From Candidatus Zymogenaceae bacterium (GTDB lineage: Bacteria > Desulfobacterota > Zymogenia > Zymogenales > Zymogenaceae): a stretch of 64,000 nucleotides of DNA. Below, one piece after another: positions 8,693 to 61,142 of this stretch (the stretch's first letter is position 1; every line of letters starts with the position of its first letter). The DNA lies in contig JAFGFE010000014.1 of NCBI GenBank assembly GCA_016931225.1, positions 62,001 to 126,000 of the forward strand, read 5' to 3'. Under the pieces are notes generated by a model. That model saw only the letters and a program-made list of their open reading frames with translations. It did not search any database and was not told where the DNA came from. The translations under genes and the position numbers were made by a program.

Positions 8693-10372
8693 TTACACCT
8701 CTTCTGCGGCCTCTTCCTGCTGGAGCCATACTTCGTTAAACAGCATGTAGAGCGTCGGGTGGGCCTGGACATCCATAACCTGGGTGCCCGTCACAAACCA
8801 GACGTTTCTCCAGAAGCTGATGCCGACTGATCCCCGCTCCCATTGGATGCGCTCGAGCTCACAGAAAATCTTACGGCGCCTATCGACATCGAGGGTGCCG
8901 TTGGCTTCTGTGAGCAGTTCGGAGAATTCCTCGTCGCTCCATCGGGTCTCGTTCCAGGGGACGGGATTCCCCTCGTCGTCGACGGTGTAGGCAAGGTTCA
9001 GCACCATGGTGCCCAGGGGACGATGTGTCCAGGACGTGATGCCCAGGTCCACTTCCGTCCACTTCTCCCAGTACTGGCTGTTGGGCATGGTGACGATGTT
9101 TACGTTGAAGCCCGCAGGGGCGGCGTCTTCCTTGAGGATTTCCGCATAACGGACCATGGCCGGCCAGCCGTTGCCCACTGCCAGGTTGATTTCAAGACCG
9201 TCTGAATATCCCGCCTCTTCCAGGAGCGCCTTGGCCTTTTCGGGATCGTATTCCGGGATCGGCTTATCGCAGTATTCGGGGTGATAGGGATAGACGTGAA
9301 AGTCCTGTCCCAGAAGACCCTGATCGAAATATGCCAGTTTGAGGATTTTTTCCCTGTTCTGGCAGAGCTTCAGGGCCATGCGGACATTATTGTCGGTCCA
9401 TGGATCCATGTCGACCCGCATCCTGAGCACCGCAACCTGGGCGGTGGAGGCGGGGATGATCTTGGCCCGCTCGTCGTCCTTGAGGGTCTCGTAGACGTCG
9501 GGGCGGGGGGAGTCGGAGAAGTCGATCATGTCGATCTCTCCGGACTGGAGCGCCGCCACCTGTGGGGACATCTCGGTGCCCATGTCGATGAACTCCATGC
9601 CGTCCATGTAGGGGAGCGACTCTCCGTCCGCGCCCGCCTGCCAGTAGTCTGTCCTTCGAACTAGACGGCACAGCTCGCCTTCGCTGTACGTCTCGATGGT
9701 GTAGGGACCGGTGCCGTGGGGCGCCTTGATGAAGTCGCCCTCGAAGGTGCGGTGGTTCAGCACCAGAGCCGGGTAGTGGAACAGATGCTCCGGCACGCCG
9801 ATCTCGGGCTGATCCAAGTGGAGGATCACCTGGTAGTCGCCCACCTTCTCAATGCCGGTGGGTGAGAGATAGGCCCCCACCATACCGAGGAGGGACGACC
9901 CCACGTCCTTGTTCAGCCACTCGTTCATGGTGAAGACCACGTCGTCGGCGTTGAACTCGTCTCCGTTGTTGAATGTGATGCCCTGTCTCAGGTTCAGGGT
10001 CCAGGTAAGCAGGTCTTCGCTGGCCTCCCAGTTTTCCAGGAGATAGGGACGGGTGATGTTTTCGCCGTCGGTCCAGGTCAGGTATTCACCCACCTGGCGC
10101 ATCTGGTTGCTGGGAACGGCCCAAGTGAACTGAGCGGGATGCGTGACCTTGTGCACCGGAGCGGCGACACGAAGGACACCGCCGCGGGTCAGCTCGGACG
10201 GCTTGGTCTTGGGGCCGCCGGTTTCCGGGGCGCAGCCGATCAGGCTCGGAGCCACGGCAGCGGATACGCCCAAGAGCGCCGCGTATCTGACAAATTCCCG
10301 GCGGGAGAGCTTCCCGGCCTTGAACTGGTCGATCAGTTCGTGGATACGAGGATTGAAAGACTTCTTTTCCAT
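8693..10372 (-). CDS. family 5 solute-binding protein, Tat lipoprotein
   Basis: This is the ligand-binding subunit of the importer (SBP_bac_5 fold, 559 residues). The start at 10372 follows AAGAAGGAGGTTAG; the frame can be read further upstream but without such a site. The N-terminus carries a twin-arginine motif (SRREFVRY), a hydrophobic segment and a lipobox ending at Cys47 (SLIGC), so it is probably exported folded and then lipidated. Family hallmarks include the ITFNNGDEFNADDVVF segment and the middle-domain DNNVRMALKLC region. First gene of the four-gene operon. The ligand cannot be read from the sequence: peptides are the default, but plant-derived sugars are also known for this family. 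Confidence 0.93.
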   Translation of the reverse strand: MEKKSFNPRIHELIDQFKAGKLSRREFVRYAALLGVSAAVAPSLIGCAPETGGPKTKPSELTRGGVLRVAAPVHKVTHPAQFTWAVPSNQMRQVGEYLTWTDGENITRPYLLENWEASEDLLTWTLNLRQGITFNNGDEFNADDVVFTMNEWLNKDVGSSLLGMVGAYLSPTGIEKVGDYQVILHLDQPEIGVPEHLFHYPALVLNHRTFEGDFIKAPHGTGPYTIETYSEGELCRLVRRTDYWQAGADGESLPYMDGMEFIDMGTEMSPQVAALQSGEIDMIDFSDSPRPDVYETLKDDERAKIIPASTAQVAVLRMRVDMDPWTDNNVRMALKLCQNREKILKLAYFDQGLLGQDFHVYPYHPEYCDKPIPEYDPEKAKALLEEAGYSDGLEINLAVGNGWPAMVRYAEILKEDAAPAGFNVNIVTMPNSQYWEKWTEVDLGITSWTHRPLGTMVLNLAYTVDDEGNPVPWNETRWSDEEFSELLTEANGTLDVDRRRKIFCELERIQWERGSVGISFWRNVWFVTGTQVMDVQAHPTLYMLFNEVWLQQEEAAEEV

Positions 10373-43790: not shown

Positions 43791-44954
43791 TCATGCGCTA
43801 CGGTAGAGTTTGGTGATGACGAATTCCCGGTGTCCCAGGGCCTCGGCAGCGGTGTGTCGGCCGTTGGCGGTGCGCCTGACGACGTCCAGGAGCCGATCAC
43901 CCGCATCGCCCAGGGACAGCTTCCCCTGGAGGATGTCGCTGACGTTGAGGTCGATGTGCTCGCTCATGGTCTCACAGGTGATGGGGTTGGCCGAGAGCTT
44001 GATGACCGGCAGCACCGGATTGCCGATGACGTTTCCCTGTCCGGTGGGGAACAGGTGAATCACCGCGCCCGACGCCATCCAGAGGGTCACTGCCTCCGCC
44101 GCGGCGGAGGATGTATTCATAAACCAGAGTCCCGGACCTGTGGGCGCTTCGGCGGGTTTCAGCACGCCCACGTATTTTACGGTTTTCCCGATCTTCTGGA
44201 TGTTCCCGAAGGCCTTCTCTTCGATGGTGGTAAGGCCCCCGGCGATGTTTCCCTTGGTGGGCTGGGAATCCGAGAGGTCGTCGGTCTTCGTGGCGGTGAT
44301 GAAGTCGTTGTATTCGCTCCACACCCGATAAAACTCCTCTCCCACCTCCTTTGTGGCGGCCCGCTCCTTCACCTCCAGCTCGGCGCCGGTGATTTCGGAC
44401 GTTTCGCCGAAGGAGACGGTGGCCCCCGCCTCCACCAGCTTCGTCACGGCGTCCCCAACGGTGGGATTGGAGGCGAGCCCCGAGGTGGTGTCCGACTCAC
44501 CGCACTTGACCGAGACGTAGAGGTCAGAGGCGTCGCATTCGGTGCGCAAAAGCTCTGTTGTGTACTGGACGTATTCCACGGCCCTGCGGGATGCCCGCTC
44601 GATGGTTGAGAGATCACCGAAGCGCTCGATAGAAAAGCCGCAGACGGGTTTTTTTGTCTCGGCGATGCCGTCCACCACCCGTTTCGTCCAGCCGTCCTCG
44701 ATGCCGATGACCACCACCGCGGCCACGTTCGGGTTTTGGCCGGTGCCGATGAGGGTGCGAAAAAAGAGATCCAGATCCTCGCCGAACTGAAGCCGTCCGT
44801 AGGCGTGGGGAATTGCCAAGGTGCCTTTAACATTGTTTCCCACCGCCTCGGCGGCGGCGTTGGAGATATCGTCCAGCGGCAGAATGAGCACGTGGTTCCT
44901 GACGCCCACCCGGCCGTTTTCCCGCTTGTATCCCATGAATGTAAATGGTTTCAT
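43791..44954 (-). CDS. UxaA/SuyB-family dehydratase or sulfo-lyase, large subunit
   Basis: At 387 residues, this matches the catalytic C-terminal part of UxaA-family enzymes (altronate/galactarate dehydratase; sulfolactate sulfo-lyase beta subunit). Family landmarks are [47 protein letters not shown] and [12 protein letters not shown], with metal-site residues in the KCGESD loop. Altronate dehydratases are usually one chain of about 495 residues. The split into a small SAF subunit and a large one of this size fits SuyAB better. Gene order is transaldolase, small subunit, large subunit on one strand. The exact substrate remains open. Confidence 0.85.
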
Positions 44955-44976
44955 AACACGATTCTTTCGTTATGGA

Positions 44977-45255
44977 TTACCAGTATTTCGTTTTCACGTT
45001 GTGCACGTGCACATGCTCGCCCTTCTTGATGGGTGAAACCGCCCGGCCGATGTCGTGATCATATTTGATGACGGTGTCGTCGGTTGTGAAGTCATTCAGG
45101 GCGACCTTGTGGCCCAGGGGGATGTCCGAGAGGGTCGAGATATCGAACTTTTTTCCGGTCGCCATATTCATGACGCGGCCGGTATCCCCTTTTAAAACAT
45201 TCACGACCGCCACGGCCACGTTGTCCTTTTCGCCGTGTACGAGAAAATGTATCAT
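44977..45255 (-). CDS. SAF-domain small subunit (SuyA/UxaA N-terminal-like)
   Basis: The 92 residues from the ATG at 45255 form a SAF domain: VAVAVVNVLKGDTGRVMNM, then IPLGHKVALNDF and DIGRAVSPIKKGEHVHVHNV. In UxaA-type lyases this domain is part of the active site. A longer upstream frame has no ribosome site. The stop lies 22 bases before the large-subunit gene, so the two form one enzyme. The length is close to that reported for the 8-kDa SuyA subunit. Confidence 0.87.
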   Translation of the reverse strand: MIHFLVHGEKDNVAVAVVNVLKGDTGRVMNMATGKKFDISTLSDIPLGHKVALNDFTTDDTVIKYDHDIGRAVSPIKKGEHVHVHNVKTKYW

Positions 45256-45355
45256 GAGTCTTGCCTTACTGCTGTGTGTGTATATACTATAAACTATAAA
45301 AAGGTAGCGCTGCTTCACATCGTCCTTTGCGCCGGACGTCGTTTTCCGATCGGCG

Positions 45356-46018
45356 TCAATCGATTTTCGTCTGGTCCCAGGCGTCCTGAAATCGTTTCAG
45401 GCCGAAGTCCGTGAACGGGTGGGAGAAACTCTCCCTGTAGACATCGAATCCGGCGGTGACGATATCGGCGCCTGCCAGGGCGGCGTCGACAATCTGCTTG
45501 CCGCTTCTGAGGGCCGCAACGATGATCCGGGCTTCGAAATCGTATGTTTCGTAGATTTCCACGACCGACGAGATGAAGTCGGAGCAGTCTTCGCCGCTGG
45601 ATTCCTTCCACCCCACGAAGGGGGAGACGAAGTACGCCCCCACACGGGCCGCCTGGATGGCCTGGGAGGGAGAGAAGACCAATGTGACGTTTGTTCTGAC
45701 GCCCTCTTCGCTGAGATTTTTCGCGGCGATCAATCCCTCTTCGGTGCAAGGGATCTTGATGACGAAGTTCTCGGAGATGTCGGCGTATGTTTTCGCCTCG
45801 TCGATCATCTCGGCGGCTTTTTCCAGGTGCGGATTGATCTCGATGGAGATCGGAAACTCGACGTTCTTGAATTCCGAGGCAAGCTCGCCGATGACGGTAT
45901 TGAACGGCTTCCCCGAGAGCAGCACGTGCCTCGGATTGGTGGTCACGCCGTCTATGCCCCAGTTTTCGAAAGCGTAGACTATTTCATCCAGCTTGGCGCT
46001 GTCCAAAAAATACTGCAT
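45356..46018 (-). CDS. transaldolase / fructose-6-phosphate aldolase-like enzyme
   Basis: This 220-residue TIM barrel of the small TalC/FSA group has Schiff-base lysine K88 in NFVIKIPCTEEGL, matching K85 of E. coli FSA in position. Other landmarks are MQYFLDSAKLDEI, GVTTNPRH and GAYFVSPFVGW. It should cleave or transfer a three-carbon unit between ketose (phosphate) and aldehyde. The start at 46018 follows GAAAGGAGGCCGCC. It is the first gene of the minus-strand unit and diverges from the ROK gene. The substrate could be a sulfo-, deoxy- or plain ketose phosphate. Confidence 0.9.
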   Translation of the reverse strand: MQYFLDSAKLDEIVYAFENWGIDGVTTNPRHVLLSGKPFNTVIGELASEFKNVEFPISIEINPHLEKAAEMIDEAKTYADISENFVIKIPCTEEGLIAAKNLSEEGVRTNVTLVFSPSQAIQAARVGAYFVSPFVGWKESSGEDCSDFISSVVEIYETYDFEARIIVAALRSGKQIVDAALAGADIVTAGFDVYRESFSHPFTDFGLKRFQDAWDQTKID

Positions 46019-46072
46019 GGCGGCCTCCTTTCGGGGGAGAATAAGTATTTTGTTACGTGTCGTAAGTTTTCG

Positions 46073-46101
46073 TTGACAGGAGACATAAATCCCCGTAGAA
46101 T
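46073..46101 (+). promoter_or_regulatory. promoter of the ROK-isomerase unit
   Basis: TTGACA at 46073-46078, 17 bases, TAGAAT at 46096-46101. Transcription should start near 46108, inside the divergent promoter on the other strand. Confidence 0.75.
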
Positions 46102-46106
46102 GCAAC

Positions 46107-46135
46107 ACTATATATCGATATCGATAAATTATCAA
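46107..46135 (-). promoter_or_regulatory. promoter of the transaldolase-lyase unit
   Basis: On the minus strand TTGATA (46135-46130), a 17-base spacer, then TATAGT (46112-46107). The spacer contains the 14-bp palindrome. The leader to the transaldolase ATG is about 85 bases. Confidence 0.7.
46113..46126. promoter_or_regulatory. 14-bp palindromic operator candidate for the ROK regulator
   Basis: TATCGATATCGATA is a perfect palindrome. It lies just downstream of the plus-strand -10 and inside the spacer of the minus-strand promoter, so one bound protein could block both. The adjacent ROK gene is the obvious source of that protein. Confidence 0.6.
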
Positions 46136-46214
46136 GGAAATAATTCCCTTCTTCGCATTTTGGATCTTAATGGTATGCGGGGGAAGCGGCTGTCATCATT
46201 ACGGATAGAGTTCA

Positions 46215-47489
46215 ATGGCCCACGGATATAATATCGACAAGAGAAAGCGAAACAAGCGGAACCACATCATCGACCTCTTCAGGAAGCACCAAATCCTCTC
46301 CAAGGCCAGGGCCAGGGAGGAAAGCGGGTATTCCATGGATACGATCATCTCGGTCTTCAACGGGCTTGTCGATGACGGGTTGATCGTTCCGACCCGGGGG
46401 GAGCAGAAGCAAAAGGGGCGAAGGGCGACGTTTTATCGCCTTGAGGACGGCGGGCACACCTACCTGGGCGTCACGTTCAACCGGTCGGGCATATACTCGG
46501 TGCTTGTGGGTCTTTCCGGAACACCGCTCTTTGATCACACGTCGCGGATCGATTCGGGGAGCACCAATGACGCCTTCGCACAACTGTTTCGGGATCACCT
46601 GGACCGGGTGACACACGATGCCCGGGACCGGTCCCTCACGATCCGGGCGGCGGGTGCGGCGGTGCCGGGAGACCTGGATGAGACGACAGGCGTGCTTCGC
46701 TCATATACGTTCATGCCCCGGCTTTCGAACCTCGATATCTTCCGAATAATCGAGGCATCCCTCCCCGGTGTGGACACGGTCGTGGAACAGAATGTGACCG
46801 GTACGGGGGGATACCTGCTGCACGACGAGGAGTTGATCGGGCGGTATCGGCGCATCCTGTTCGTCTCGGTCCACAGCGGCGCCGCCTCGGGGCTTTTGTA
46901 TGACGGGAATATCGTCACCGGGCACGGGGAGTTCGGCCACATCCGGGTGTCGGACGAGGAGAAAAGGTGCGTCTGCGGACGCCGGGGATGTCTGGATCTC
47001 TACTTTTCCCACCAGGGATTTCTGCAGCTCTATCGGGAGGCGATGGGGCGGGCGGGAGAGGAAGGGGTGTCCGATATCGAGCCGGACGACCTGATAGAGA
47101 CGCTGCGGGACGCCTTCGCCGAAGGCGGCAAAGACCTGGCGCGCGCTTTGCGCCGTCGCCTCGGTTATTTTGTGTCGGCGCTTTTGGACGTCGTCAACGT
47201 CACGGCGCCGGACGCGGTGGTCCTGACCGGGTCGCTCTTTCGCGCCTATCCGGATCCGTACGGGGAGCTGCTCTCCGTCATCGGGGAGCGATTCGAGGAT
47301 ACCGGATTCATCACCCATTTTGCTAATACCGATCTCATCTATCGGGATATGGGTCCGGAGATCGCCGCGATGGGCGGCGCCTATCGCCTCGTCGACCGGG
47401 ACTGGGGATACATCCGGGAGGATCGGCGCCCTCGGCGGAGGGGGGAGCGTCCCGCATCGAACGGCCGTGTCGTCGGGGGGAATACATGA
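46215..47489 (+). CDS. ROK-family transcriptional repressor
   Basis: The 424 residues hold an N-terminal winged helix (NHIIDLFRKHQILSKARAREESGYSMDTIISVF, about 15-55) and a ROK sugar-kinase-like domain. The zinc motif C-x-C-G-x2-G-C (CVCGRRGC near residue 253) is intact, and the HGEFGH histidine segment is present. ROK repressors release DNA on binding a sugar. The gene overlaps the next one (ATGA), has its own promoter at 46073-46101, and probably represses both directions through 46113-46126. The effector should be a substrate or intermediate of the neighbouring enzymes. Confidence 0.9.
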   Translation: MAHGYNIDKRKRNKRNHIIDLFRKHQILSKARAREESGYSMDTIISVFNGLVDDGLIVPTRGEQKQKGRRATFYRLEDGGHTYLGVTFNRSGIYSVLVGLSGTPLFDHTSRIDSGSTNDAFAQLFRDHLDRVTHDARDRSLTIRAAGAAVPGDLDETTGVLRSYTFMPRLSNLDIFRIIEASLPGVDTVVEQNVTGTGGYLLHDEELIGRYRRILFVSVHSGAASGLLYDGNIVTGHGEFGHIRVSDEEKRCVCGRRGCLDLYFSHQGFLQLYREAMGRAGEEGVSDIEPDDLIETLRDAFAEGGKDLARALRRRLGYFVSALLDVVNVTAPDAVVLTGSLFRAYPDPYGELLSVIGERFEDTGFITHFANTDLIYRDMGPEIAAMGGAYRLVDRDWGYIREDRRPRRRGERPASNGRVVGGNT

Positions 47490-48802
47490 AGTATCCTGTT
47501 ACCATCGGCGTGGTCTGCCTGGCGAGAACCACTTTCGATTATACGGCGGCCCGGGGGATATACGAGAGAATACAGGCGGATCTCGAACGTATCGAAAACG
47601 CACAGGTATACGCGATACCCGATCTCGTCATAGAGGTGGAGGACGCCCGGAAGGCGGCGGCGGAGCTCAGGAAGCACGGGATCAACGGTCTGGTCGTCAT
47701 CAGCGGCACCTTTCATTTGGGACACCTGGCCCTGGAGCTTGACCGGGAGTTCGGGGTCCCGATTCTCCTCTGGGGGCTTAACGAGCTTCCCTATGACGGC
47801 GGGAAGATACGCCTGAACTCCGTCTGCGGGGTCAACCTGAACGCCTCGAACCTCTACAAGTCGGGGCACCGGGGGTATCACGTGACCATCGGCGACGCCA
47901 TCGACGAGAACTGGGTGGACGCGGTGCGGGTGGTGGCCGCCCTTAGGCGCTCCCGGGTGGGCATCGCCGGATATCGGGCCCACGGTTTTTTCAACCTGGA
48001 TGTGGCGGACCTCTCCATCTACCGGGAGATCGGGACGCTGGTGGATCATTTCGAGCTTGCGGATATTTACGGCCGGGAGGTAAAGGCGGCAGAGAAGAAT
48101 CGGAGAAAAAAGGAACTGAAACACACCTTCGATACCTCCGGCATCACCGACGAACAACTGGAGAGGGTCGCCTCTCTCTCGGCACAACTCGACGCCTTCA
48201 TGGAATCAAATAAACTCGACGCCCTGGCCCTTCGCTGCTGGCCCGAGTTCGCCCGGGAGTTCGGCATCGCCCCGTGTGCGGCCATGTCGCTTCTGCAGTC
48301 CGAGGGCCGCATCATCGCCTGTGAGGGGGATCTGGAGGGGACGCTCTCCATGCTGGCCCACAGCGCCGCCGGGGGTGAGACCCCGTTTCTGTTCGACTTT
48401 TCCCAGGTGAATATCGCCGAAAACTTCGCCCTTCTGTGGCACTGCGGTGTGGCCCCCTGTTCCCTGTGGGACGGCGTGTGTACGAGGTCCCTCGACACCT
48501 ATTTCGCCGGGGGGAGGGGCGTGACAGCGGACTTCGTGCTGCGTGAGGGGGACGTCTCGATCCTGCGCATCGATACCGCCGGGGACGAACACCGCCTGTT
48601 CCTGGCCAGGGCGCGGGGCATTCCTATGGAAAAGGAGCTCAAGGGAACCTACCTGAAGGTGACGTTCCCCGAGCCGGTGGAACGAGTCCTCAACAGGATC
48701 ATCTATACCGGCATCGCCCACCACGCCTCGATGGTCTACGGCGATTTCATCGCCCCCTTCGAGATCGTGGCCCGGATCTACGGCTGGCGCGTCATCGCGT
48801 GA
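47486..48802 (+). CDS. L-fucose/L-arabinose isomerase-fold sugar isomerase
   Basis: This 438-residue protein of the fucose/arabinose isomerase family interconverts aldose and ketose sugars with a divalent metal. Visible features are the N-terminal Rossmann-like part (VVISGTFHLGHLALEL, LLWGLNELPYDGG) and a C-terminal region with CWPEFAREFGIAPCAAMSLL, where the Trp/Glu segment is typical. The late His in IAHHASMVYGD is a probable metal ligand. It is shorter than L-fucose isomerase (about 590). It is translationally coupled to the ROK repressor and diverges from a transaldolase, so it probably supplies the ketose cleaved there. Confidence 0.82.
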   Translation: MKYPVTIGVVCLARTTFDYTAARGIYERIQADLERIENAQVYAIPDLVIEVEDARKAAAELRKHGINGLVVISGTFHLGHLALELDREFGVPILLWGLNELPYDGGKIRLNSVCGVNLNASNLYKSGHRGYHVTIGDAIDENWVDAVRVVAALRRSRVGIAGYRAHGFFNLDVADLSIYREIGTLVDHFELADIYGREVKAAEKNRRKKELKHTFDTSGITDEQLERVASLSAQLDAFMESNKLDALALRCWPEFAREFGIAPCAAMSLLQSEGRIIACEGDLEGTLSMLAHSAAGGETPFLFDFSQVNIAENFALLWHCGVAPCSLWDGVCTRSLDTYFAGGRGVTADFVLREGDVSILRIDTAGDEHRLFLARARGIPMEKELKGTYLKVTFPEPVERVLNRIIYTGIAHHASMVYGDFIAPFEIVARIYGWRVIA

Positions 48803-52729: not shown

Positions 52730-54127
52730 TTATTCGACGATGGGAGTCTCCTTTCGGTATTTATCCAACACGCTCTTGACCTTCTTCTCCGGGTAGAGGG
52801 CGTAGCAGATGATGCCCAAAAGCGCCACAACCATCGCCGTCGGTCCGGAAATCTTTACTCCCATGGGCGCGGCTACGTCTTTTCCGAACTGGGAGAAGAG
52901 AAACGCAAGGACCATGGTCGAGAAGCCCAGATTGAGCTTTTCCAGAAATCCCTGGGCGGAAAAGCACATCCCCTCCCGGCGGCTGCCGGAGAGTATCGCA
53001 TCGTATTCCGCGACGTCGGCCAGTATGGCGTTGGGGAGCAACAGCAGCGTGGAGACGGGGATGCCCATGATGCCGAAGATGACGAACGCCTGGGTCGTGG
53101 GGGAGAAGGGGAGGACATCGGAGCCGAGGAAGTAGACCGATCCCGTGGTGATCGCGAAGAGGGCGAGGCCCGTCATCAGGACGGCCCGCTTCCCGAAGCG
53201 CTTGCTGGCCAGGTTGACGATCGGGAACATCAGGAGCGCCACGCCGAACAGCGCCGCGTACACATTGCCGGCGAACGCCTCCTCACGATGCAGAAGGACC
53301 GTGATGTAATAGGTGGTGGTCTGAGAAATGATATTCAGGCCGAACCAAAAGGACATGGTGCCGGTGATGTAGAAGATGAAGGCCCGGTTGGTGAGGGTGA
53401 TCTTCAAAGACTTGAACAGGCCGATCTCGGAGGGGGTCGGGTCGCAGTATCTGTGTTCATCTATGGGGAGAACCGCGATATAGCAGAGAATCAGCCCCAC
53501 CACGCAGAGGATCAGCACCGTCATCTGGAGGGCTCTCGCCTTTTCCAGGCCGGTGTTTTCCAGCGCGCCCCACAGCATGTATCCCAAGATCATCACGACG
53601 ATGACCCCCCCCAGCTTGTACAGGGCCTGGATGGTCACCAGATTGATGCGCTCTGTTTCAGTGTGGGTCACCTCGGCGATGAGGGTGATGAACGGCAGGA
53701 CGTACACGGTGAAGAAGAAGAGCGTCAACCCCAGCATGAGCGCCATGTAGAAAACATTGAGAATGCTCTCCTCATCGGCGGGAGGAAAGAACAAGAGCGC
53801 CAGGCAGACAATCAGCGGGAGGCCGCCGTAGAGCATGAAGGACTTCCTCCTGCCCAGCTTGGAGGTGCTCCGGTCGCTCCAGTATCCGACGAGGGGATCG
53901 GCGATGGCGTCCACGATTCTGCCGAAGACGGTCACCACTCCCGCCACCGTAAGAAATCCCCAGAAGGTATTGTTTGAAATAAGCTGCGGCATGCCAGACT
54001 CCGCCGGCGGCAGGTAGAAGTAGAGCATGAAACTGACCCATATCCTGTCTGCGATGGTAAATCCGCTGGCACCGCTGGAATAGACAATCTGTTTCCAGAG
54101 GGGAAACTTTTCAACCCGCTTTTTCAT
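52730..54127 (-). CDS. GPH-family (major facilitator) sugar-cation symporter
   Basis: This 465-residue inner-membrane transporter has about twelve helices and the glycoside-pentoside-hexuronide pattern. Features include an early QIVYSSGASGFTIADR segment, ADPLVGYWSDRSTSKLGRRKSFM in the first cytosolic loop, and PNAILADVAEYDAILSGSRREGM in the later one. These transporters move glycosides or pentosides with sodium or protons. The ATG at 54127 follows GGAG by six bases. It is downstream of the GH172 gene on the same strand, so it probably imports that enzyme's substrate or product. Confidence 0.92.
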   Translation of the reverse strand: MKKRVEKFPLWKQIVYSSGASGFTIADRIWVSFMLYFYLPPAESGMPQLISNNTFWGFLTVAGVVTVFGRIVDAIADPLVGYWSDRSTSKLGRRKSFMLYGGLPLIVCLALLFFPPADEESILNVFYMALMLGLTLFFFTVYVLPFITLIAEVTHTETERINLVTIQALYKLGGVIVVMILGYMLWGALENTGLEKARALQMTVLILCVVGLILCYIAVLPIDEHRYCDPTPSEIGLFKSLKITLTNRAFIFYITGTMSFWFGLNIISQTTTYYITVLLHREEAFAGNVYAALFGVALLMFPIVNLASKRFGKRAVLMTGLALFAITTGSVYFLGSDVLPFSPTTQAFVIFGIMGIPVSTLLLLPNAILADVAEYDAILSGSRREGMCFSAQGFLEKLNLGFSTMVLAFLFSQFGKDVAAPMGVKISGPTAMVVALLGIICYALYPEKKVKSVLDKYRKETPIVE

Positions 54128-54215
54128 GGCGCACTCCATAGAAAATTACATAATGAGCAACATATCCGCATCAGAACAATGGCGGATCGTTTTTCAACCG
54201 TGTGTCATCGGGCGA

Positions 54216-55376
54216 TCAGAGCTTCGATCGAATGTTTCTGTCCGTGTCGGTGAATAATCCCGCCATCCGTTCTTTTGCCCCGATGATCGGTCCCAGGTCG
54301 TTTTCGGGGCTATCCAGGTAAAAATAGACGCAGCTTGAGACGTCGTCTTGGCGCTCGAAATAGCCGATGGGCCATTCATCACCGATTGTGGTGAGGTCCA
54401 CCTCCACGAGCCCCGGTCCCGCCCGGTACACCTTCGGATTTATCTCGATCAGCATCTTTTTTGAGTCCTCCCACCAGATGCCCATCTGCTGGAGGGTCAC
54501 CCGGATGTCTTCGTAAAAATAGACCGGGTCCGGGATATGCAGCCGGTAAAAGGAATACTGCATATTTTCCTCGTCCGCCAGAGCGCAGCCCTGGTAGAGA
54601 TTGACGAAGCTCCACAGGTTGAAGGCCGACCCGATGTAGTCCTCGTTCCCGGTGCCGCAGAGGGTTGGATAGTCGGTGTCCCCGTCGAGGTATATCTTCG
54701 CCTCGCCCTCGCCCCACCAGGCGGTGCCGTACTTCTTTGTATCCAGGATCAATCCGATCTGCGCCCCGAGGTATCGTCCCTTCCCTTCGATCTTCGGAAG
54801 GATCTCGAAGTCCTGCTGGAAGGTGGTGGGGTTTTCCCGCCGGAAGTGTGCGTGGAAATAGGAGACGTCGTTTGTGTGGTCGTCTCCGATGGTGTAGTTG
54901 ATGTCGTAGTAGAAAAGGGAGAGGTTGATGCCGCTTTCGTTGGTGACCACCACCTTCATGCCGGTTTTAAACGGCATGGGGACGACGGAGACGAAGCTCC
55001 TCCCCTCGGGACTGGAAAAGAGGGCGGACTCGAAGGGGCGCATCCTCCCCAGACCGTGGCCGAAGAAATCTCCCAGGGGTGTCGAGACCGCCGGCGTGGC
55101 GGCATTATCCCAGTAGATATCCAGGCGGATCCCCCGGATCATTTCGGGGGTGCGATCGTTTATGGTAATCCAGATACGCCGAAGCGTCCCGCTGGTGCCG
55201 GACACCTGGGCCAGCACCTTCTCTTCACCCGCCGGGAGATAGAAGAAGGCGGAGCCCTTTCTCCCGCCGTTTTCCTTCCCCCCCGCCCCCTTTACGCCGT
55301 TCCAGTTTTCCGGGCTGGCCCAGCGGGTCTCGACGCCTTTGGGGAGGGAGTAGAGCGACTTCGGATCATACATCAT
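54216..55376 (-). CDS. GH172-family (DUF2961) glycosidase, D-arabino/fructofuranosidase-like
   Basis: The 386 residues match DUF2961. Known GH172 members act on alpha-D-fructofuranosides (difructose anhydride formers) and alpha-D-arabinofuranosides. Diagnostic segments are ENWNGVKGAGGKENGGRKGS, WITINDRTPEMIRGIRLDIYWD, DFFGHGLG and LCGTGNEDYIGSAF with a catalytic acid candidate. There is no signal peptide, so the reaction would be cytosolic, matching a transporter gene directly downstream. The start at 55376 follows ACAGGAGGTATTGTT. It is divergent from the LacI gene and probably controlled by it. Confidence 0.85.
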   Translation of the reverse strand: MMYDPKSLYSLPKGVETRWASPENWNGVKGAGGKENGGRKGSAFFYLPAGEEKVLAQVSGTSGTLRRIWITINDRTPEMIRGIRLDIYWDNAATPAVSTPLGDFFGHGLGRMRPFESALFSSPEGRSFVSVVPMPFKTGMKVVVTNESGINLSLFYYDINYTIGDDHTNDVSYFHAHFRRENPTTFQQDFEILPKIEGKGRYLGAQIGLILDTKKYGTAWWGEGEAKIYLDGDTDYPTLCGTGNEDYIGSAFNLWSFVNLYQGCALADEENMQYSFYRLHIPDPVYFYEDIRVTLQQMGIWWEDSKKMLIEINPKVYRAGPGLVEVDLTTIGDEWPIGYFERQDDVSSCVYFYLDSPENDLGPIIGAKERMAGLFTDTDRNIRSKL

Positions 55377-55590
55377 AACAATACCTCCTGTGTTCCATAT
55401 TGACATTTCTCCCGGAGTTCCGTATTTTTAATATATATGTATGTGTCGAGAGATTTTCGTGGTTTCATATGTCGGGGCGCTTTTTCATATTACAGGATCG
55501 ACCCGGCGAATTATTGTTGAGAGTATATGTATGGAGTCCGGAGGCGGCCGGCGGAGACGAAACTCGATGGATGTAACCGGCTTTCTAACC

Positions 55591-55619
55591 TTGACAGCTC
55601 CGGAAACGTGGAGTAGTAT
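55591..55619 (+). promoter_or_regulatory. promoter of the LacI-isomerase-kinase operon
   Basis: TTGACA at 55591-55596, a 17-base spacer and TAGTAT at 55614-55619. Transcription should start at about 55626, within the palindrome. The -10 overlaps the divergent -10. Confidence 0.7.
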
Positions 55620-55642
55620 AACATGCACAATCGATTGTGCAA
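55615..55642 (-). promoter_or_regulatory. divergent promoter toward the GH172 gene
   Basis: On the minus strand, TTGCAC (55642-55637), a 16-base spacer and TATACT (55620-55615) with a TGT extended element directly before it. Most of the -35 and spacer lies in the LacI palindrome. The leader is about 230 bases. Confidence 0.6.
55624..55641. promoter_or_regulatory. 18-bp perfect palindromic operator for the LacI regulator
   Basis: TGCACAATCGATTGTGCA is a perfect palindrome with the central CG typical of LacI/GalR sites. It covers the start of the plus transcript and the -35/spacer of the minus promoter, so a single dimer could repress both the GH172/transporter side and the regulator/isomerase/kinase side. 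Confidence 0.75.
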
Positions 55643-55654
55643 GGAAAAAAATAC

Positions 55655-56674
55655 GTGAAGCCCACCATGCAGGACATCGCGAAGCGCGCCGGGGTGAACA
55701 TCTCCACCGTCAGCAGGGTGCTTGCCGGTAAGGCGAAGAGTTCCCGCATCGGTGAAGAAACCACCCGACGGGTGCTGTCCGTGGCGGAGGAGCTTGGGTA
55801 TCGCCCCAACCTCTCGGCCCGGGCGCTGCGCACGAGCAAGACCGACACCCTGGGCCTTCTGGTGACCGACCTGGCCAATCCCTTTTTCGCCACGATCAGC
55901 GCCGCGTGCGAGGCGGAGGCGTCTTCCGCCGGGTACGGGGTGATGGTGGCCACCAGCGGGGAGAACAGGAGCCGGGAGGCGCACTATATCTCGCTGCTTC
56001 GGTCGAGGCCCGTGGACGGGCTGATCGTGACCCCGGCGGGGCTGACCCCCCATCAGGAGCTGGAGCTGCTTTTGGAGGAGGGATTCCCCCTGGTGTTGAT
56101 GGATCGGAGGATTGACGGTGTGTCCTGTGACAGCGTGGTGGTGGACAACCGAGACGGTGCAAGACGGCTCGTGAGGGAGCTTATTGATATGGGTGCCGTG
56201 ACCATCGCGGTCGCCGGCGGCCCCGTCGACACATGGACCGGGGCCGAGCGGATGAAGGGGTTTATAGAAGGCATCCGTGATGCGAATCTTTTGTTTTCCG
56301 AGGAAATGGTATACATCGGGCCCTATGACGAGGAAACCGGGCGCCGCGCCGCCCGATCGTTTCTTGAAAGGGGCAAAAAACCGGACGCCGTCGTCGCGGC
56401 AAACAACCGGATCCTCGAGGGGGTGCTGGAGATTCTGATGGCGAGAGGTTCGGACGGCGAAAACATCGCCGTCGGTGCGTTCGACGGGGTTCCCTTCACG
56501 GGATTGATGCGTCGTCCGATCGTCATTGCGGAACAGCCCAGGCGGGAGATCGGCCGTCGGGCCGCCCGTCTTTTGATTGATCGGATCGAGGGGGCCACTA
56601 CTTGTGGGATTCGGGAGGAGGTGCTCCCCGTCCGCATTACACGGACCGGGGAAAGCTCAGTCTCCCTAACCTGA
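55655..56674 (+). CDS. LacI-family transcriptional repressor
   Basis: Reading from GTG at 55655, nine bases after AAGGA, gives the usual LacI start MKPTMQDIAKRAGVNISTVS with the helix-turn-helix and hinge (PNLSARALR). The sugar-binding domain follows (LLVTDLANPFFATI to residue 339). The longer GTG start at 55637 lies inside the operator palindrome and is less likely. The operator at 55624-55641 lies just upstream, so it should repress itself and the divergent genes. The inducer is likely a sugar from the GH172 or isomerase pathway. Confidence 0.92.
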   Translation: MKPTMQDIAKRAGVNISTVSRVLAGKAKSSRIGEETTRRVLSVAEELGYRPNLSARALRTSKTDTLGLLVTDLANPFFATISAACEAEASSAGYGVMVATSGENRSREAHYISLLRSRPVDGLIVTPAGLTPHQELELLLEEGFPLVLMDRRIDGVSCDSVVVDNRDGARRLVRELIDMGAVTIAVAGGPVDTWTGAERMKGFIEGIRDANLLFSEEMVYIGPYDEETGRRAARSFLERGKKPDAVVAANNRILEGVLEILMARGSDGENIAVGAFDGVPFTGLMRRPIVIAEQPRREIGRRAARLLIDRIEGATTCGIREEVLPVRITRTGESSVSLT

Positions 56675-56716
56675 ACGGATAACAAAGAATACAAACAAAA
56701 AAGGGGAGAAAACGCC

Positions 56717-58234
56717 ATGAGTACGCGGATCGGGATTTTTTGGCCCGGAGACTACCGGGAAAAGCCGAATGAGGACGCCCTCCCGCAGATGACCGAGGCC
56801 ACGCGCCGGCTTGAAGCGGCCCTCGATCGCCTGGGGAAAAAACATTACCGGATCGACGGCTTTTTGACCCGGCCCCACGAGTCCATCGAGAAGCTCGGCC
56901 CTGTGGACGATCCGCTCATCGGCGTCTTCGCCCACTGGGTCTACGGCCCCCACACCACCGACGGCACCGTGGGGAAGGACACGCCGCTTTTATTGGCCAG
57001 CAATTTTTCCGGCACGTGGCCCGGGCTCGTGGGGCTTCTCAACACCAGCGCGTGCCTGGAGACCGTGGGGCGCAGGCACTCCAGGATATGGACGGATGCT
57101 GTGGACTGGACGAAGGACGATGCCTTCATAGCGGGGCTGGAGCAGTGGTGCAGCGTGGGGAGTGTGTCGTACCCGAAAGACGCGATCGCCTACAGCGCCC
57201 CGGTGGATGAGGGGGCCGTCCGGATCGCGCGGGAGGTCGCAGGGGAGATCGAGAAACGGAGGATTCTCATCCTCATGTTGGGGGACACCAGCATGGGCAT
57301 GATCAACGGCTACTTCGGCCCGAGGCTGCTCTCCCGGGTCGGCTTCGCCGAGCACAAGGTGGATCAGGCGTGGCTGGTGGCCCGGGGAAGAGACATCGAT
57401 CAAAGGCGCATCGAGGACGCGTATCGGTTCGTGGTGGATAAGGGCGTTGTCTTTCACTACGACGATCCGGGAGCTGGGGACTTCGACGCAAACGCCACGA
57501 AGGAGCAGCTCCGGGACTACCTGACGGTGCTCGACCTGGTGGGTGAATTCAAGGCCGACTGCATCGGCTGGCAGTATCAGCTCGGCCTCATCCCGCTGCG
57601 CCCCCCCTCCGATTTCGCAGAGGGTCTTCTCAACAGCGGATGCCGCCCCGAGGGAACCGGCACGACCATCGTGGATTCCACCGAGGCCGACCAGGGAAAC
57701 GTCATCCCCATGGAGCTGATGAAGCGCATCCTGCAAAAAAAGGGGATGGGAGAAGGCGTGATGTTTCACGACGTGCGATGGGGGGCGGAGTTCGACGGCC
57801 GGTTCCTGTGGGTGCTGCTCAACAGCGGATCCTCCAGCGCCTACGCCTTCAATCACGACATGAAAAGCCTCAAGGGCGTCCACTCCTATCGACAGCCGGC
57901 GGCGTATTTCCCCAATCCGGGGGGCACCTTCACCGGCGAGAGCCTGCCGGGAAAGATCACCTGGGCCCGGTCGTATATCAAGGACGATGAGCTGTGGATG
58001 GACGTTGGGAAAGGCGAGGTCGTGAAGCTCCCGGAGGCCACCAGGGACGCGTGGTGGGAGGGGACGAACCGGCAGTGGCCGTTCATGGCCGCCGACATGG
58101 GGATCTCCCGGGATACCCTCATGGCCCACTACATGAGCAACCACGCGGCGGTGGCCTACGGAGACATCTTTGGAGAGATGGTCGCCCTCTCCCGAGAGCT
58201 GGGTTTCAAGGTGCGGGTGCTGAAGGAGCGGTGA
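56717..58234 (+). CDS. fucose/arabinose isomerase-family sugar isomerase
   Basis: This 505-residue protein of the L-fucose isomerase superfamily has segments typical of it: [29 protein letters not shown] and [13 protein letters not shown], with likely metal ligands Glu, Asp and His. L-fucose isomerases also convert D-arabinose to D-ribulose. The next gene is a ribulokinase-like FGGY kinase only one base away, so an aldopentose-to-ketopentose step followed by phosphorylation is the simplest reading. AAAAGGGGAGAAAACGCC precedes the ATG. Confidence 0.82.
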
Positions 58235-58235
58235 T

Positions 58236-59876
58236 ATGACGGATAAATTCTATATCGGCGTGGACGTGGGCACCGGCAGCGCCCGGGCCGGTCTGTTCGA
58301 CGGAAACGGAAAGATGCGGGGCATGGCCGCCCACCCGATCGAGATGTCCCGGCCGGAGAACGATTTCGTCGAGCAGAGCTCCGAGAATATTTGGAGGATG
58401 GTGTGTCGGTCCGTCCGGGACGCAATGAGTGAGGCGGGGGTGGATGGGGGCCGGATCGGCGGGATGGGGTTCGACGCCACCTGCTCACTGGTGGCGGTGG
58501 ATGCGGACGACGGGCCGGTGAGCGTCTCGCCCACGGGCGATGACCGGTGGAACGTTATCGTCTGGATGGACCACCGGGCGATATCGGAAACCGAAGAGAT
58601 CAACCGCATGGGCCATCCCGTGCTGCAATACGTGGGCGGCGTCATCTCCCCGGAGATGCAGACGCCGAAGCTGTTGTGGCTCAAGCGAAACCTCCCCGAC
58701 GCCTGGAGAAGAGCCGCCCGGTTCTTCGATCTGCCGGATTACCTCACCTATCGTGCCACAGGCTTCGACACCCGGTCGCTCTGCAGCATCGTGTGCAAGT
58801 GGACCTATCTGGGCCGCGAGAACAGGTGGGACGATGATTACTTCTCCCGGGCGGGGCTGGGGGACCTTTCTGATGAGGGATATCGCCGCATCGGCACCCG
58901 GATACGCCCCATGGGGGAGCCGGTGGGGGAGGGCCTCTCGCGGCGGGCGGCGGATGAGCTGGGGCTTTCTCCCGGAACCCCGGTGGGGGTCTCCATCATA
59001 GATGCCCATGCCGGCGGGGTGGGGTTGTTGGGGATGACCGTCGACGGCAGAGCGCTGTCTCCCGACGATTTCGAGAGGCGGCTCGCCCTCATCGGCGGCA
59101 CCAGCACGTGCCACATGGCCGTAAGCACGGAGCCCCGCTTCATCCCCGGCGTCTGGGGGCCCTACTACGGCGCCATGATACCGGGGATGTGGCTCACCGA
59201 GGGGGGGCAGAGCGCAACCGGCTCCCTCATCGATCATGTCATCTTTTCCCATAGCGCTTCCGCTCCCCTTGCCGAGGAGGCGAAAGCAGCCGGTACGACG
59301 ATATATGAGCTTCTCAACCGGCGGCTCGACCGCCTTTCTGAGACGGCATCTCATCCCGGCGCCCTCACCGAGGAGCTTCACGTGCTCCCCTATTTTCACG
59401 GCAATCGATCGCCCCGGGCCGACGCCACGCTGCGGGGTGCGGTCTGCGGTCTTCGCCTGTCGGACACGGCGGACGACCTGGCGCTTGTATATCTCGCCGC
59501 CGTGCAGGCGGTTGCCTACGGAACCCGGCACATCATCGAGGAGATGAACACTGCGGGCTACGCCGTCGATACCGTAATCGCCTGCGGCGGCGGCACGAAG
59601 AACCGGGTGTTCTTGAGGGAGCATGCGAACTCCACCGGATGCCGGATCGTCCTGGGCGCGGAGCCAGAGGCGGTGCTTTTGGGGTCGGCGGTGCTGGGGG
59701 CGGTGGCCGGGGGAGATTTCCCCACGATCATGGAGGCCATGGCCGCGATGGAGTCGCCGGGGGAGGTGATCGGTCCGGAGGCGGGGGCGGTCCGGGACTA
59801 TCATGACAGAAAATATCGGGTCTTTCATCGCATGTACGACGACTTCATGGCCTATCGCGTGCTGATGCGGCAATGA
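58236..59876 (+). CDS. FGGY-family carbohydrate kinase (ribulokinase-like)
   Basis: This 546-residue kinase has both FGGY lobes. It opens with [17 protein letters not shown] (phosphate-1 motif), then WMDHRA in the substrate pocket (TrpMetAspHis, as in ribulo- and xylulokinases). The C-terminal lobe has GTSTCHMAV and [14 protein letters not shown], the adenine-binding loop. It phosphorylates a ketose, likely D-ribulose, with ATP. AGCGGTGAT precedes the ATG, which follows the isomerase stop by one base. No gene follows closely on this strand. Confidence 0.9.
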
Positions 59877-60185: not shown

Positions 60186-61142
60186 ATGTCGAGAGACATC
60201 ACGTGGGACCTGAAAAACGGGACCATCCATTCGGGCGATCTGCGACTGGTCATGCATCGGGAGATGTTCATCTCATTGTTGCTTGACAAGCTTGCCGGAT
60301 ATGGCCCCGGCCTCTTAAATCGACTCCTGCTCAATGTGGCGCGAAAGACGAATCTCCCGACGGTCCGGGACATAGAGGACGCCAGAGAACAGGAATCCCT
60401 CTCTCCGGAGGAGCGGGAGTTGATGATTCTTTCGTACTTCTTCGGCGGCCTGCGTGACACCTACGCCGATCACCCCCCCCTGCGGAACACGATTTCAATC
60501 CTCAAGTGGACCGAAAAGAACGAGATCATGTTCAACGATCCGTCCCGAACGTTCATCTTTTTGCCGGTGAGGATGATCTGGGCGATGAAAAAGGATATGG
60601 AAGGGCTTTTGGGCGAGCACGGCTTCATGCAGATTCTCAGTCGGGCGGCCCGGGATACGGGGAGGATAACCGGCGGCAATGAGGTGGAAAGATATAAAGA
60701 CCTCACCATTGAAAAGCTGTTTGAGCGAATATCATTCGAGATGTCCTGGGTGTTTCCGGTGCTGGGCTGGGGCAGATGCAGCATCGTTACCGATGCGGAA
60801 CACAACAGGCTTTGTTTCAAGGTTGCAAACAGCTATGAGTCCGACGGCCTGTCGTTTAACCGCTATAACTGTGTAATATTCCTCAATTACCTGGTCGGGG
60901 TCGCCGAGGGGATCATGAGGCCGATCACCGGGCTTCACGCGTCGGGATGTGAGATCAAGTGTGTCGCCAACGGAGACGACTGCTGCGCCTTCTTCGTTCA
61001 GTTTCACAAACCCGATGAGCGGCTGGACCTGTCGTGCGATGAGTTTCGAGAGAAACAGAAAGAAATCATGGAAGAATTCCCCGACAAAGACGCCGATCCC
61101 ACCGAGCATCCGATGATACAGGCCTTTCTTGAGGGCGGATAG
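60186..61142 (+). CDS. V4R-domain protein
   Basis: The C-terminal half of the 318 residues matches the V4R (4-vinyl reductase) domain, a small-molecule-binding fold related to heme-NO-binding sensors. It has YLVGVAEGIMRPITGLHASGCEIKCVANGDDCCAFFV, with a Cys-rich end typical of the family. The N-terminal half is helical and has no known motif. V4R proteins often sense or process hydrocarbon or tetrapyrrole ligands. The gene stands alone. Cofactor and partner unknown. Confidence 0.82.
   Translation: MSRDITWDLKNGTIHSGDLRLVMHREMFISLLLDKLAGYGPGLLNRLLLNVARKTNLPTVRDIEDAREQESLSPEERELMILSYFFGGLRDTYADHPPLRNTISILKWTEKNEIMFNDPSRTFIFLPVRMIWAMKKDMEGLLGEHGFMQILSRAARDTGRITGGNEVERYKDLTIEKLFERISFEMSWVFPVLGWGRCSIVTDAEHNRLCFKVANSYESDGLSFNRYNCVIFLNYLVGVAEGIMRPITGLHASGCEIKCVANGDDCCAFFVQFHKPDERLDLSCDEFREKQKEIMEEFPDKDADPTEHPMIQAFLEGG

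Follow-up and report, generated by a model that had tools for sequence, protein, structure and literature searches.

Organization of the locus

The window, the whole stretch of 64,000 nucleotides from an uncultured bacterium analysed here, carries between positions 52730 and 59876 a pair of divergent operons, with the genes for a GH172 glycosidase and a GPH-like symporter on the minus strand and those for a LacI-family regulator, an aldose-ketose isomerase and an FGGY kinase on the plus strand (Table 1). The glycosidase, transporter, isomerase and kinase genes named in a preliminary description are all present as intact frames, and the lacI gene, unnamed there, lies between the minus-strand and plus-strand genes. 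The intergenic gaps are 76 bp between the GH172 and symporter genes, 42 bp between lacI and the isomerase gene and 1 bp between the isomerase and kinase genes. Domains were assigned with Pfam and NCBIfam, and the start sites of GH172 and lacI were corrected from the DNA. The GH172 frame, which had been drawn to 55406, most likely starts at the ATG preceded by AGGAGG. The lacI gene most likely starts at a GTG at 55655; an upstream start at 55637 is possible but overlaps the palindrome described below. Rfam and tRNA scans gave no matches, and a search at the ends of the two operons gave no rho-independent terminators.

Table 1. Features of the divergent operon pair and their coordinates in the window
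Feature	Position	Strand	Basis
Cation symporter of GPH-like (MFS_2) type (469 aa), proposed to import D-arabinofuranosides or D-arabinose	52730..54139	-	Pfam MFS_2
Predicted cytoplasmic exo-alpha-D-arabinofuranosidase of GH172 (DUF2961), 386 aa	54216..55376	-	Pfam, PDB, motifs, tree, Foldseek
AGGAGG ribosome-binding site of GH172	55384..55389	-	Sequence, 7 nt before ATG 55376
Sigma-70-like promoter TTGACA-17-TAGTAT of lacI-isomerase-kinase	55591..55619	+	Promoter scan
18-bp perfect palindrome TGCACAATCGATTGTGCA, candidate LacI-family operator	55624..55641	.	Sequence
LacI-family regulator	55655..56674	+	Pfam LacI and Peripla_BP_1
Aldose-ketose isomerase of the FucI/AraI superfamily (505 aa), predicted to be a D-arabinose isomerase	56717..58234	+	Profile, fold, ligands
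FGGY kinase of the TIGR01315 pentulose kinase type, predicted to be a D-ribulokinase	58236..59876	+	TIGR01315, PDB 3gg4/3l0q

Two promoter-like sites were found in the region against 0.5 expected. The palindrome, a candidate operator, lies just downstream of the -10 element and upstream of lacI. It occurs as a single copy in the 3.7-Mb genome even when up to 3 mismatches are allowed, and since a genome-wide search gave no further copies, no wider regulon can be drawn. A LacI homologue with 49% identity lies upstream of the isomerase gene at a locus in another genome (L027).

The GC content of the stretch is close to that of its surroundings. Together with the presence of the same gene pairings in other genomes, this led to the rejection of a MAG artefact as the origin of the grouping. 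In other phyla, too, this isomerase goes together with GH172 and with a kinase of the same type, and so the grouping is not a matter of chance. Ancestry of the locus within its lineage was also rejected. The isomerase or a relative is found in just 3 of 148 genomes of the phylum, one of which is the window's own and one of which has it at 35% identity, and therefore acquisition by transfer is the more likely origin.

Isomerase and kinase

Of the Fucose_iso_N1, N2 and C domains, the isomerase exceeds the cut-off with Fucose_iso_C alone (51 bits); it scores 23.7 bits with Fucose_iso_N1, below the cut-off of 28. A single-sequence phmmer search of the isomerase against the PDB gave no match. The isomerase was the founding query of a separate family of about 505 residues, whose members come from at least 11 phyla and share 66-73% identity. 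The profile of this family finds D-arabinose isomerase (3a9r) and L-fucose isomerase (1fui) as its top PDB matches. FucI/D-arabinose isomerase structures come first among the fold matches (Foldseek E 1e-22 to 4c20/3a9r/1fui), followed by AraI. The Mn ligands E337, D361 and H528 of FucI map to E323, D352 and H476 of the window isomerase. These three residues, and those that correspond to Q300, W499 and N527, do not vary among 32 sequences drawn from many phyla. Fold and metal ligands thus place the enzyme in the FucI/AraI superfamily. The designation as an L-fucose isomerase holds at this level and not for canonical FucI, as the protein scores 25 against 775 bits with NF008220. Judged by these comparisons, the isomerase is a distinct family inside the superfamily, remote from L-fucose isomerase. 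A second isomerase encoded at 47486-48802 resembles sulfoquinovose isomerase and was rejected as a duplicate.

The FGGY kinase scores 662.5 bits with TIGR01315 against a curated cut-off of 408.7, although this subfamily model does not fix one pentulose. Its PDB matches are 3gg4/3l0q (8e-218), the Yersinia structure being the closest by sequence, and it is predicted to be a D-ribulokinase.

It is unlikely that the true substrate of the isomerase is L-fucose (or L-galactose or D-altrose) and that the locus serves fucose catabolism with GH172 as an incidental neighbour. The remote homology to FucI is consistent with such a role, as are an alpha-L-fucosidase-like gene adjoining the isomerase gene at one GH172-linked locus (L002) and RhaB-like kinases, judged from sequence starts, near the isomerase at three loci (L037, L051 and L081). 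However, the window kinase belongs to TIGR01315 and reaches only 40 bits with the L-fuculokinase model, and a fuculose-phosphate aldolase is absent from the locus. Furthermore, GH172 is found at the isomerase locus in 13 of 50 genomes against 0.32 expected, an enrichment of about 40-fold, and GH116 also occurs at such loci. D-Arabinose remains the predicted substrate.

Transport and gene neighborhoods

The transporter scores 175 bits with Pfam MFS_2 (3e-51), over the cut-off, and 148.9 bits with TIGR00792 (gph), below the cut-off of 231.35, and is hence described only as GPH-like. It has about 12 hydrophobic segments and may import a D-arabinofuranoside or free D-arabinose.

A kinase at least 54% identical to that of the window is present at 37 of 80 isomerase loci. 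Most isomerase-kinase loci elsewhere are without GH172 and carry a ribose-type ABC transporter, and dedicated use of D-ribulose has been shown for RblK of C. rodentium (PMC12307932). These observations would suit a main role in scavenging free D-arabinose or D-ribulose, with GH172 acting on a minor or different pentofuranoside. In the window, however, the sole transporter gene of the locus is transcribed together with GH172, divergently from the isomerase operon, and a scavenging role is slightly less probable still than the fucose reading.

Predicted specificity of the GH172 glycosidase

The GH172 protein belongs to Pfam DUF2961 (PF11175; 219.9 bits against a gathering score of 27; 4.5e-65). 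ExoMA1 (8ic8) is its top PDB match both by sequence (3e-49) and by fold in Foldseek, the structure model being of moderate quality (pLDDT 71.5). The WWGEGE and GTGNED motifs align with the acid/base E270, the nucleophile E291 and Asp292 of aFFase1, and all three residues are kept. The choice between D-Araf and D-Fruf is reported to be set by Asn253 in ExoMA1 and Gly299 in aFFase1 (PMC10509167), with Asn excluding fructose, a rule drawn from this one enzyme pair. The window enzyme has Asn at this position, where GTGNEDYIGSAFN aligns to GTGTEDYFGGAWN without a gap. The rule fails for some isomerase-linked GH172s, because sister enzymes have Gly, Cys or Ser there. In the tree, a group with 98/99 support unites the window GH172 with ExoMA1 and with six other isomerase-linked GH172s, four of them from Pseudomonadota, and the fructose enzyme aFFase1 falls outside it. 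These observations suggest that the window GH172 is an ExoMA1-like exo-alpha-D-arabinofuranosidase. The highest Kyte-Doolittle mean in its first 60 residues is 0.52, which agrees with the earlier remark that a signal peptide is missing.

That GH172 releases fructose from an alpha-D-fructofuranoside, as Bifidobacterium aFFase1 does (difructose dianhydride I), is very improbable: although a genuine alpha-D-fructofuranosidase exists within GH172 (PMC8605356) and the PfkB-type kinase beside an Arthrobacter-type plasmid GH172 suits fructose, the position held by Gly in aFFase1 and by Ala in the Arthrobacter enzyme is a bulky Asn in the window enzyme, which clusters with ExoMA1 apart from aFFase1, and the locus encodes no PfkB or ROK fructokinase but an aldose isomerase and a pentulose kinase, neither of which fructose would require. 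Of the two sugars first proposed for GH172, D-arabinose is thus the one retained.

Proposed pathway

From gene content, protein families, catalytic residues and cross-phylum association, we infer enzyme activities, transport and regulation under which the locus most probably serves the inducible intracellular catabolism of small alpha-D-arabinofuranosides. The glycoside or free D-arabinose would enter through the GPH-like symporter, and alpha-D-arabinofuranose would be removed by cytoplasmic GH172 through a retaining mechanism with the two conserved glutamates. The isomerase, with its conserved Glu/Asp/His metal site, would convert D-arabinose to D-ribulose, and the FGGY kinase would produce D-ribulose-5-phosphate, which may enter the pentose phosphate pathway through the ribulose-phosphate epimerase encoded in the genome. 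The route from GH172 through D-arabinose and D-ribulose to D-ribulose-5-phosphate, in essence already proposed, is supported by the residues, the phylogeny and the conserved gene association. LacI probably binds the palindrome and thereby represses the operon that encodes it, perhaps along with the divergent one, and this repression would be lifted once D-arabinose or a derivative accumulates.

Implications

D-Arabinofuranose, the rare mirror-image form of arabinose, is the one in tuberculosis cell walls, and D-arabinose has mostly been regarded as a curiosity of mycobacterial walls. A catabolic module conserved among planctomycetes, myxobacteria, acidobacteria, chloroflexi and desulfobacteria would imply that D-arabinose glycans are widely eaten, and one environmental source is the alpha-D-arabinofuranan made by Devosia submarina (PMC8707391). 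There is an even chance that the window isomerase represents an unrecognised, strongly conserved family of D-arabinose isomerases in at least 11 phyla of environmental bacteria, which together with the TIGR01315 kinase, and with GH172, GH116 and ABC or GPH transporters as additions, would define a widespread module for D-arabinose and D-arabinofuranosides and make D-arabinofuranose glycans a common carbon source beyond mycobacterial walls. The family is easy to assay, could correct the annotation of many 'fucose isomerase' or unannotated genes, and could flag genomes that encode D-arabinofuranosidases, among which there might be enzymes that aid the degradation of mycobacterial walls.

Comparison with known systems

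The use of D-arabinan by non-mycobacteria, which had been put forward as a little-described trait, has already been published for Dysgonomonas (PMC10115798) and Microbacterium (PMC10509167). The D-arabinan PUL of Microbacterium arabinogalactanolyticum encodes EndoMA1/2 (GH183), ExoMA1 (GH172) and ExoMA2 of GH116, the other known exo-D-arabinofuranosidase family (PMC10509167), and like the window locus has a putative isomerase and kinase. Its GH183 endo-arabinanases are secreted, and it also has GH116 and imports through an ABC transporter, whereas the window locus has a GPH-like symporter and is without GH116. A search of the window's own genome for GH183 (DUF4185, PF13810) gave no match, although the model itself performs as it should, matching in 4 of 20 other genomes. 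With a single, predicted cytoplasmic GH172, the locus lacks the combination of GH183 and exo-enzymes of a D-arabinan PUL, and the suggested breakdown of polymeric D-arabinan is not borne out. PUL42 of Dysgonomonas gadei, with three GH172 enzymes and GH183, resembles the window locus in that GH172 and a predicted fucose isomerase are highly expressed on D-arabinan (PMC10115798); it differs in degrading the polymer, in belonging to Bacteroidota and in that DgGH172c lies in another GH172 clade, with Cys at the specificity position.

The window isomerase shares with E. coli FucI (1FUI) and the Aeribacillus pallidus enzyme (3A9R) the superfamily fold, the three metal ligands and several substrate residues, and FucI enzymes act on D-arabinose (PMC6894278). 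Unlike FucI, it has 505 rather than about 590 residues, with a shorter N-terminal part and 19-20% identity in structural alignments. The kinase, which belongs to TIGR01315 well over the cut-off, has its nearest known counterparts in the FGGY D-ribulokinases, among them DarK, RblK and Yersinia 3gg4/3l0q, its likeness to DarK and RblK being at the family level. The locus is a variant of the already described use of D-arabinan and D-arabinofuranosides, and the predicted isomerase family is its more interesting part.

Organization of the locus and its surroundings

The GH172, GPH, isomerase and FGGY kinase genes have intact reading frames at the coordinates given in the preliminary description, and a LacI regulator gene lies between the GH172/GPH and isomerase/kinase pairs. 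Two divergent operons are formed, GH172 followed by GPH on the minus strand and lacI, isomerase and kinase on the plus strand, with the kinase start 1 bp from the isomerase stop. The DNA supports corrected starts of GH172, now a 386-residue product, and of lacI. The inter-operon palindrome TGCACAATCGATTGTGCA occurs once in the 3.7-Mb genome with up to three mismatches allowed and is a good candidate for the LacI operator. Three of the 148 phylum genomes, this one among them, encode the isomerase or a relative. The nearest tree neighbor of the isomerase is from Raymondbacteria, with weak local support, and the locus probably represents an island acquired by transfer. The neighboring 43791-48802 stretch, which also contains a ROK regulator gene, may be an island for sulfosugars or sugar acids in which a transaldolase performs the cleavage.

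Features in and around the locus
Feature	Window position	Strand	Remark
UxaA/SuyB-like large subunit	43791-44954	-	
Small SAF-like subunit	44977-45255	-	
FSA/TalC-type transaldolase	45356-46018	-	
Sulfoquinovose-isomerase-like protein	47486-48802	+	NF048012, 202 bits (cut-off 700)
GH172 revised start	55376	-	preceded by AGGAGG
Sigma-70-like promoter	55591-55619		between operons
Perfect 18-bp palindrome	55624-55641		between operons, after promoter
lacI revised start	55655	+	GTG
318-residue protein	60186-61142		downstream of kinase; no match in Pfam or NCBIfam

Substrate of the GH172 enzyme

The GH172 protein matches Pfam DUF2961 (4.5e-65), has the catalytic glutamates (E270 and E291 of aFFase1, the Bifidobacterium alpha-D-fructofuranosidase) and the Asp following the nucleophile, and lacks a signal peptide, as had been proposed. 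The Microbacterium exo-alpha-D-arabinofuranosidase ExoMA1 (PDB 8ic8) is its closest solved structure by sequence and by fold, the fold model being moderate (pLDDT 71.5). Both fall in a tree group with 98/99 support, together with four isomerase-linked Pseudomonadota GH172s and two further isomerase-linked proteins, and aFFase1 lies outside it. The choice between D-arabinofuranose and D-fructofuranose has been attributed to one residue, Asn253 in ExoMA1 versus Gly299 in aFFase1 (PMC10509167), and the window enzyme has Asn. An Arthrobacter-type plasmid GH172 in a fructokinase-like context has Ala, in agreement with this rule; Gly, Cys or Ser occupies the position in other isomerase-linked GH172s, so that the rule does not cover every case. 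A GH172 on a conjugative Klebsiella pneumoniae plasmid (locus L094, NZ_CP070108.1, 8962-10080), matched by 42 Klebsiella plasmid records, also has Ala and adjoins an oligosaccharide MFS transporter and a LacI regulator.

D-arabinan breakdown had also been suggested. Since the genome contains a single GH172 and no match to the GH183 model, which does match in other genomes, the organism's likely substrates are small D-arabinofuranosides and not the D-arabinan polymer. The genome also has two GH116-type genes outside the locus.

Isomerase and kinase

The isomerase is a remote relative of FucI and not a standard L-fucose isomerase, only the C-terminal Pfam domain exceeding its cut-off. The single sequence matches nothing in the PDB; searching with a profile built from 32 relatives brings up D-arabinose isomerase 3a9r and L-fucose isomerase 1fui. 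The best matches of the AlphaFold model (pLDDT 86.8) are to FucI/D-arabinose isomerase, with L-arabinose isomerase next. E323, D352 and H476, corresponding to the three FucI metal ligands, and the counterparts of FucI Q300, W499 and N527 are invariant in 32/32 sequences. This roughly 505-residue family is strikingly conserved, the window protein being 66-73% identical to those of Raymondbacteria, Planctomycetota, Pseudomonadota, Sumerlaeota, Verrucomicrobiota, Myxococcota, Chloroflexota, Acidobacteriota, Gemmatimonadota, Desulfobacterota and Hydrogenedentota. Remoter plasmid-borne relatives (about 31% identity), annotated as fucose isomerase, have a TIGR01315 kinase partner in the cases examined.

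The window kinase is itself a TIGR01315 pentulose kinase (663 bits, cut-off 409), and its nearest structure is the Yersinia enzyme 3gg4/3l0q. The FGGY enzymes RblK and DarK have experimental D-ribulokinase roles, and D-arabinose metabolism requires DarK (PMC12307932). At three loci elsewhere (L037, L051 and L081), the kinase near the isomerase looks RhaB-like rather than TIGR01315, judged by sequence start, and the isomerases there may act on another sugar.

Gene association and proposed pathway

Of 80 isomerase loci, 37 have a kinase that shares 54% identity or more with that of the window, and about six have a more distant FGGY. Among 50 genomes whose GH172 genes had been counted, 13 carry GH172 at the isomerase locus versus 0.32 expected under random gene scatter (nominal P 7e-19, inflated by the relatedness of some loci). 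GH116, with GH172 one of the two known exo-D-arabinofuranosidase families (PMC10509167), adjoins the isomerase at five loci, four of them Pfam-confirmed, and ribose-type ABC transporters are common at isomerase loci. The independent recurrence of this association gives the strongest support for D-arabinose as the isomerase substrate. At the Raymondbacteria locus L002, an alpha-L-fucosidase-like (GH29-type) gene (8915-9907) adjoins GH172, GH116 and the isomerase; its product may target D-arabinopyranose, a near-mimic of L-fucose.

The substrate would enter through the symporter, which scores below the gph cut-off and is only loosely assignable to GPH. GH172 would then release D-arabinose, the isomerase would convert it to D-ribulose and the kinase would yield D-ribulose-5-phosphate, which could enter the pentose phosphate pathway through the ribulose-phosphate epimerase encoded in the same genome, with LacI presumably exerting control through the palindrome.

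Comparison with known systems

This kind of pathway is already known. In Dysgonomonas gadei, a predicted fucose isomerase is highly expressed on D-arabinan, alongside GH172 (PMC10115798), and a Microbacterium polysaccharide utilization locus contains GH172 and a putative isomerase and kinase (PMC10509167). New here are a version that works inside the cell, is fed by GPH and lacks endo-enzymes, and the placing of the isomerase in a separate, widely distributed family of putative D-arabinose isomerases tied to D-arabinofuranosidases.
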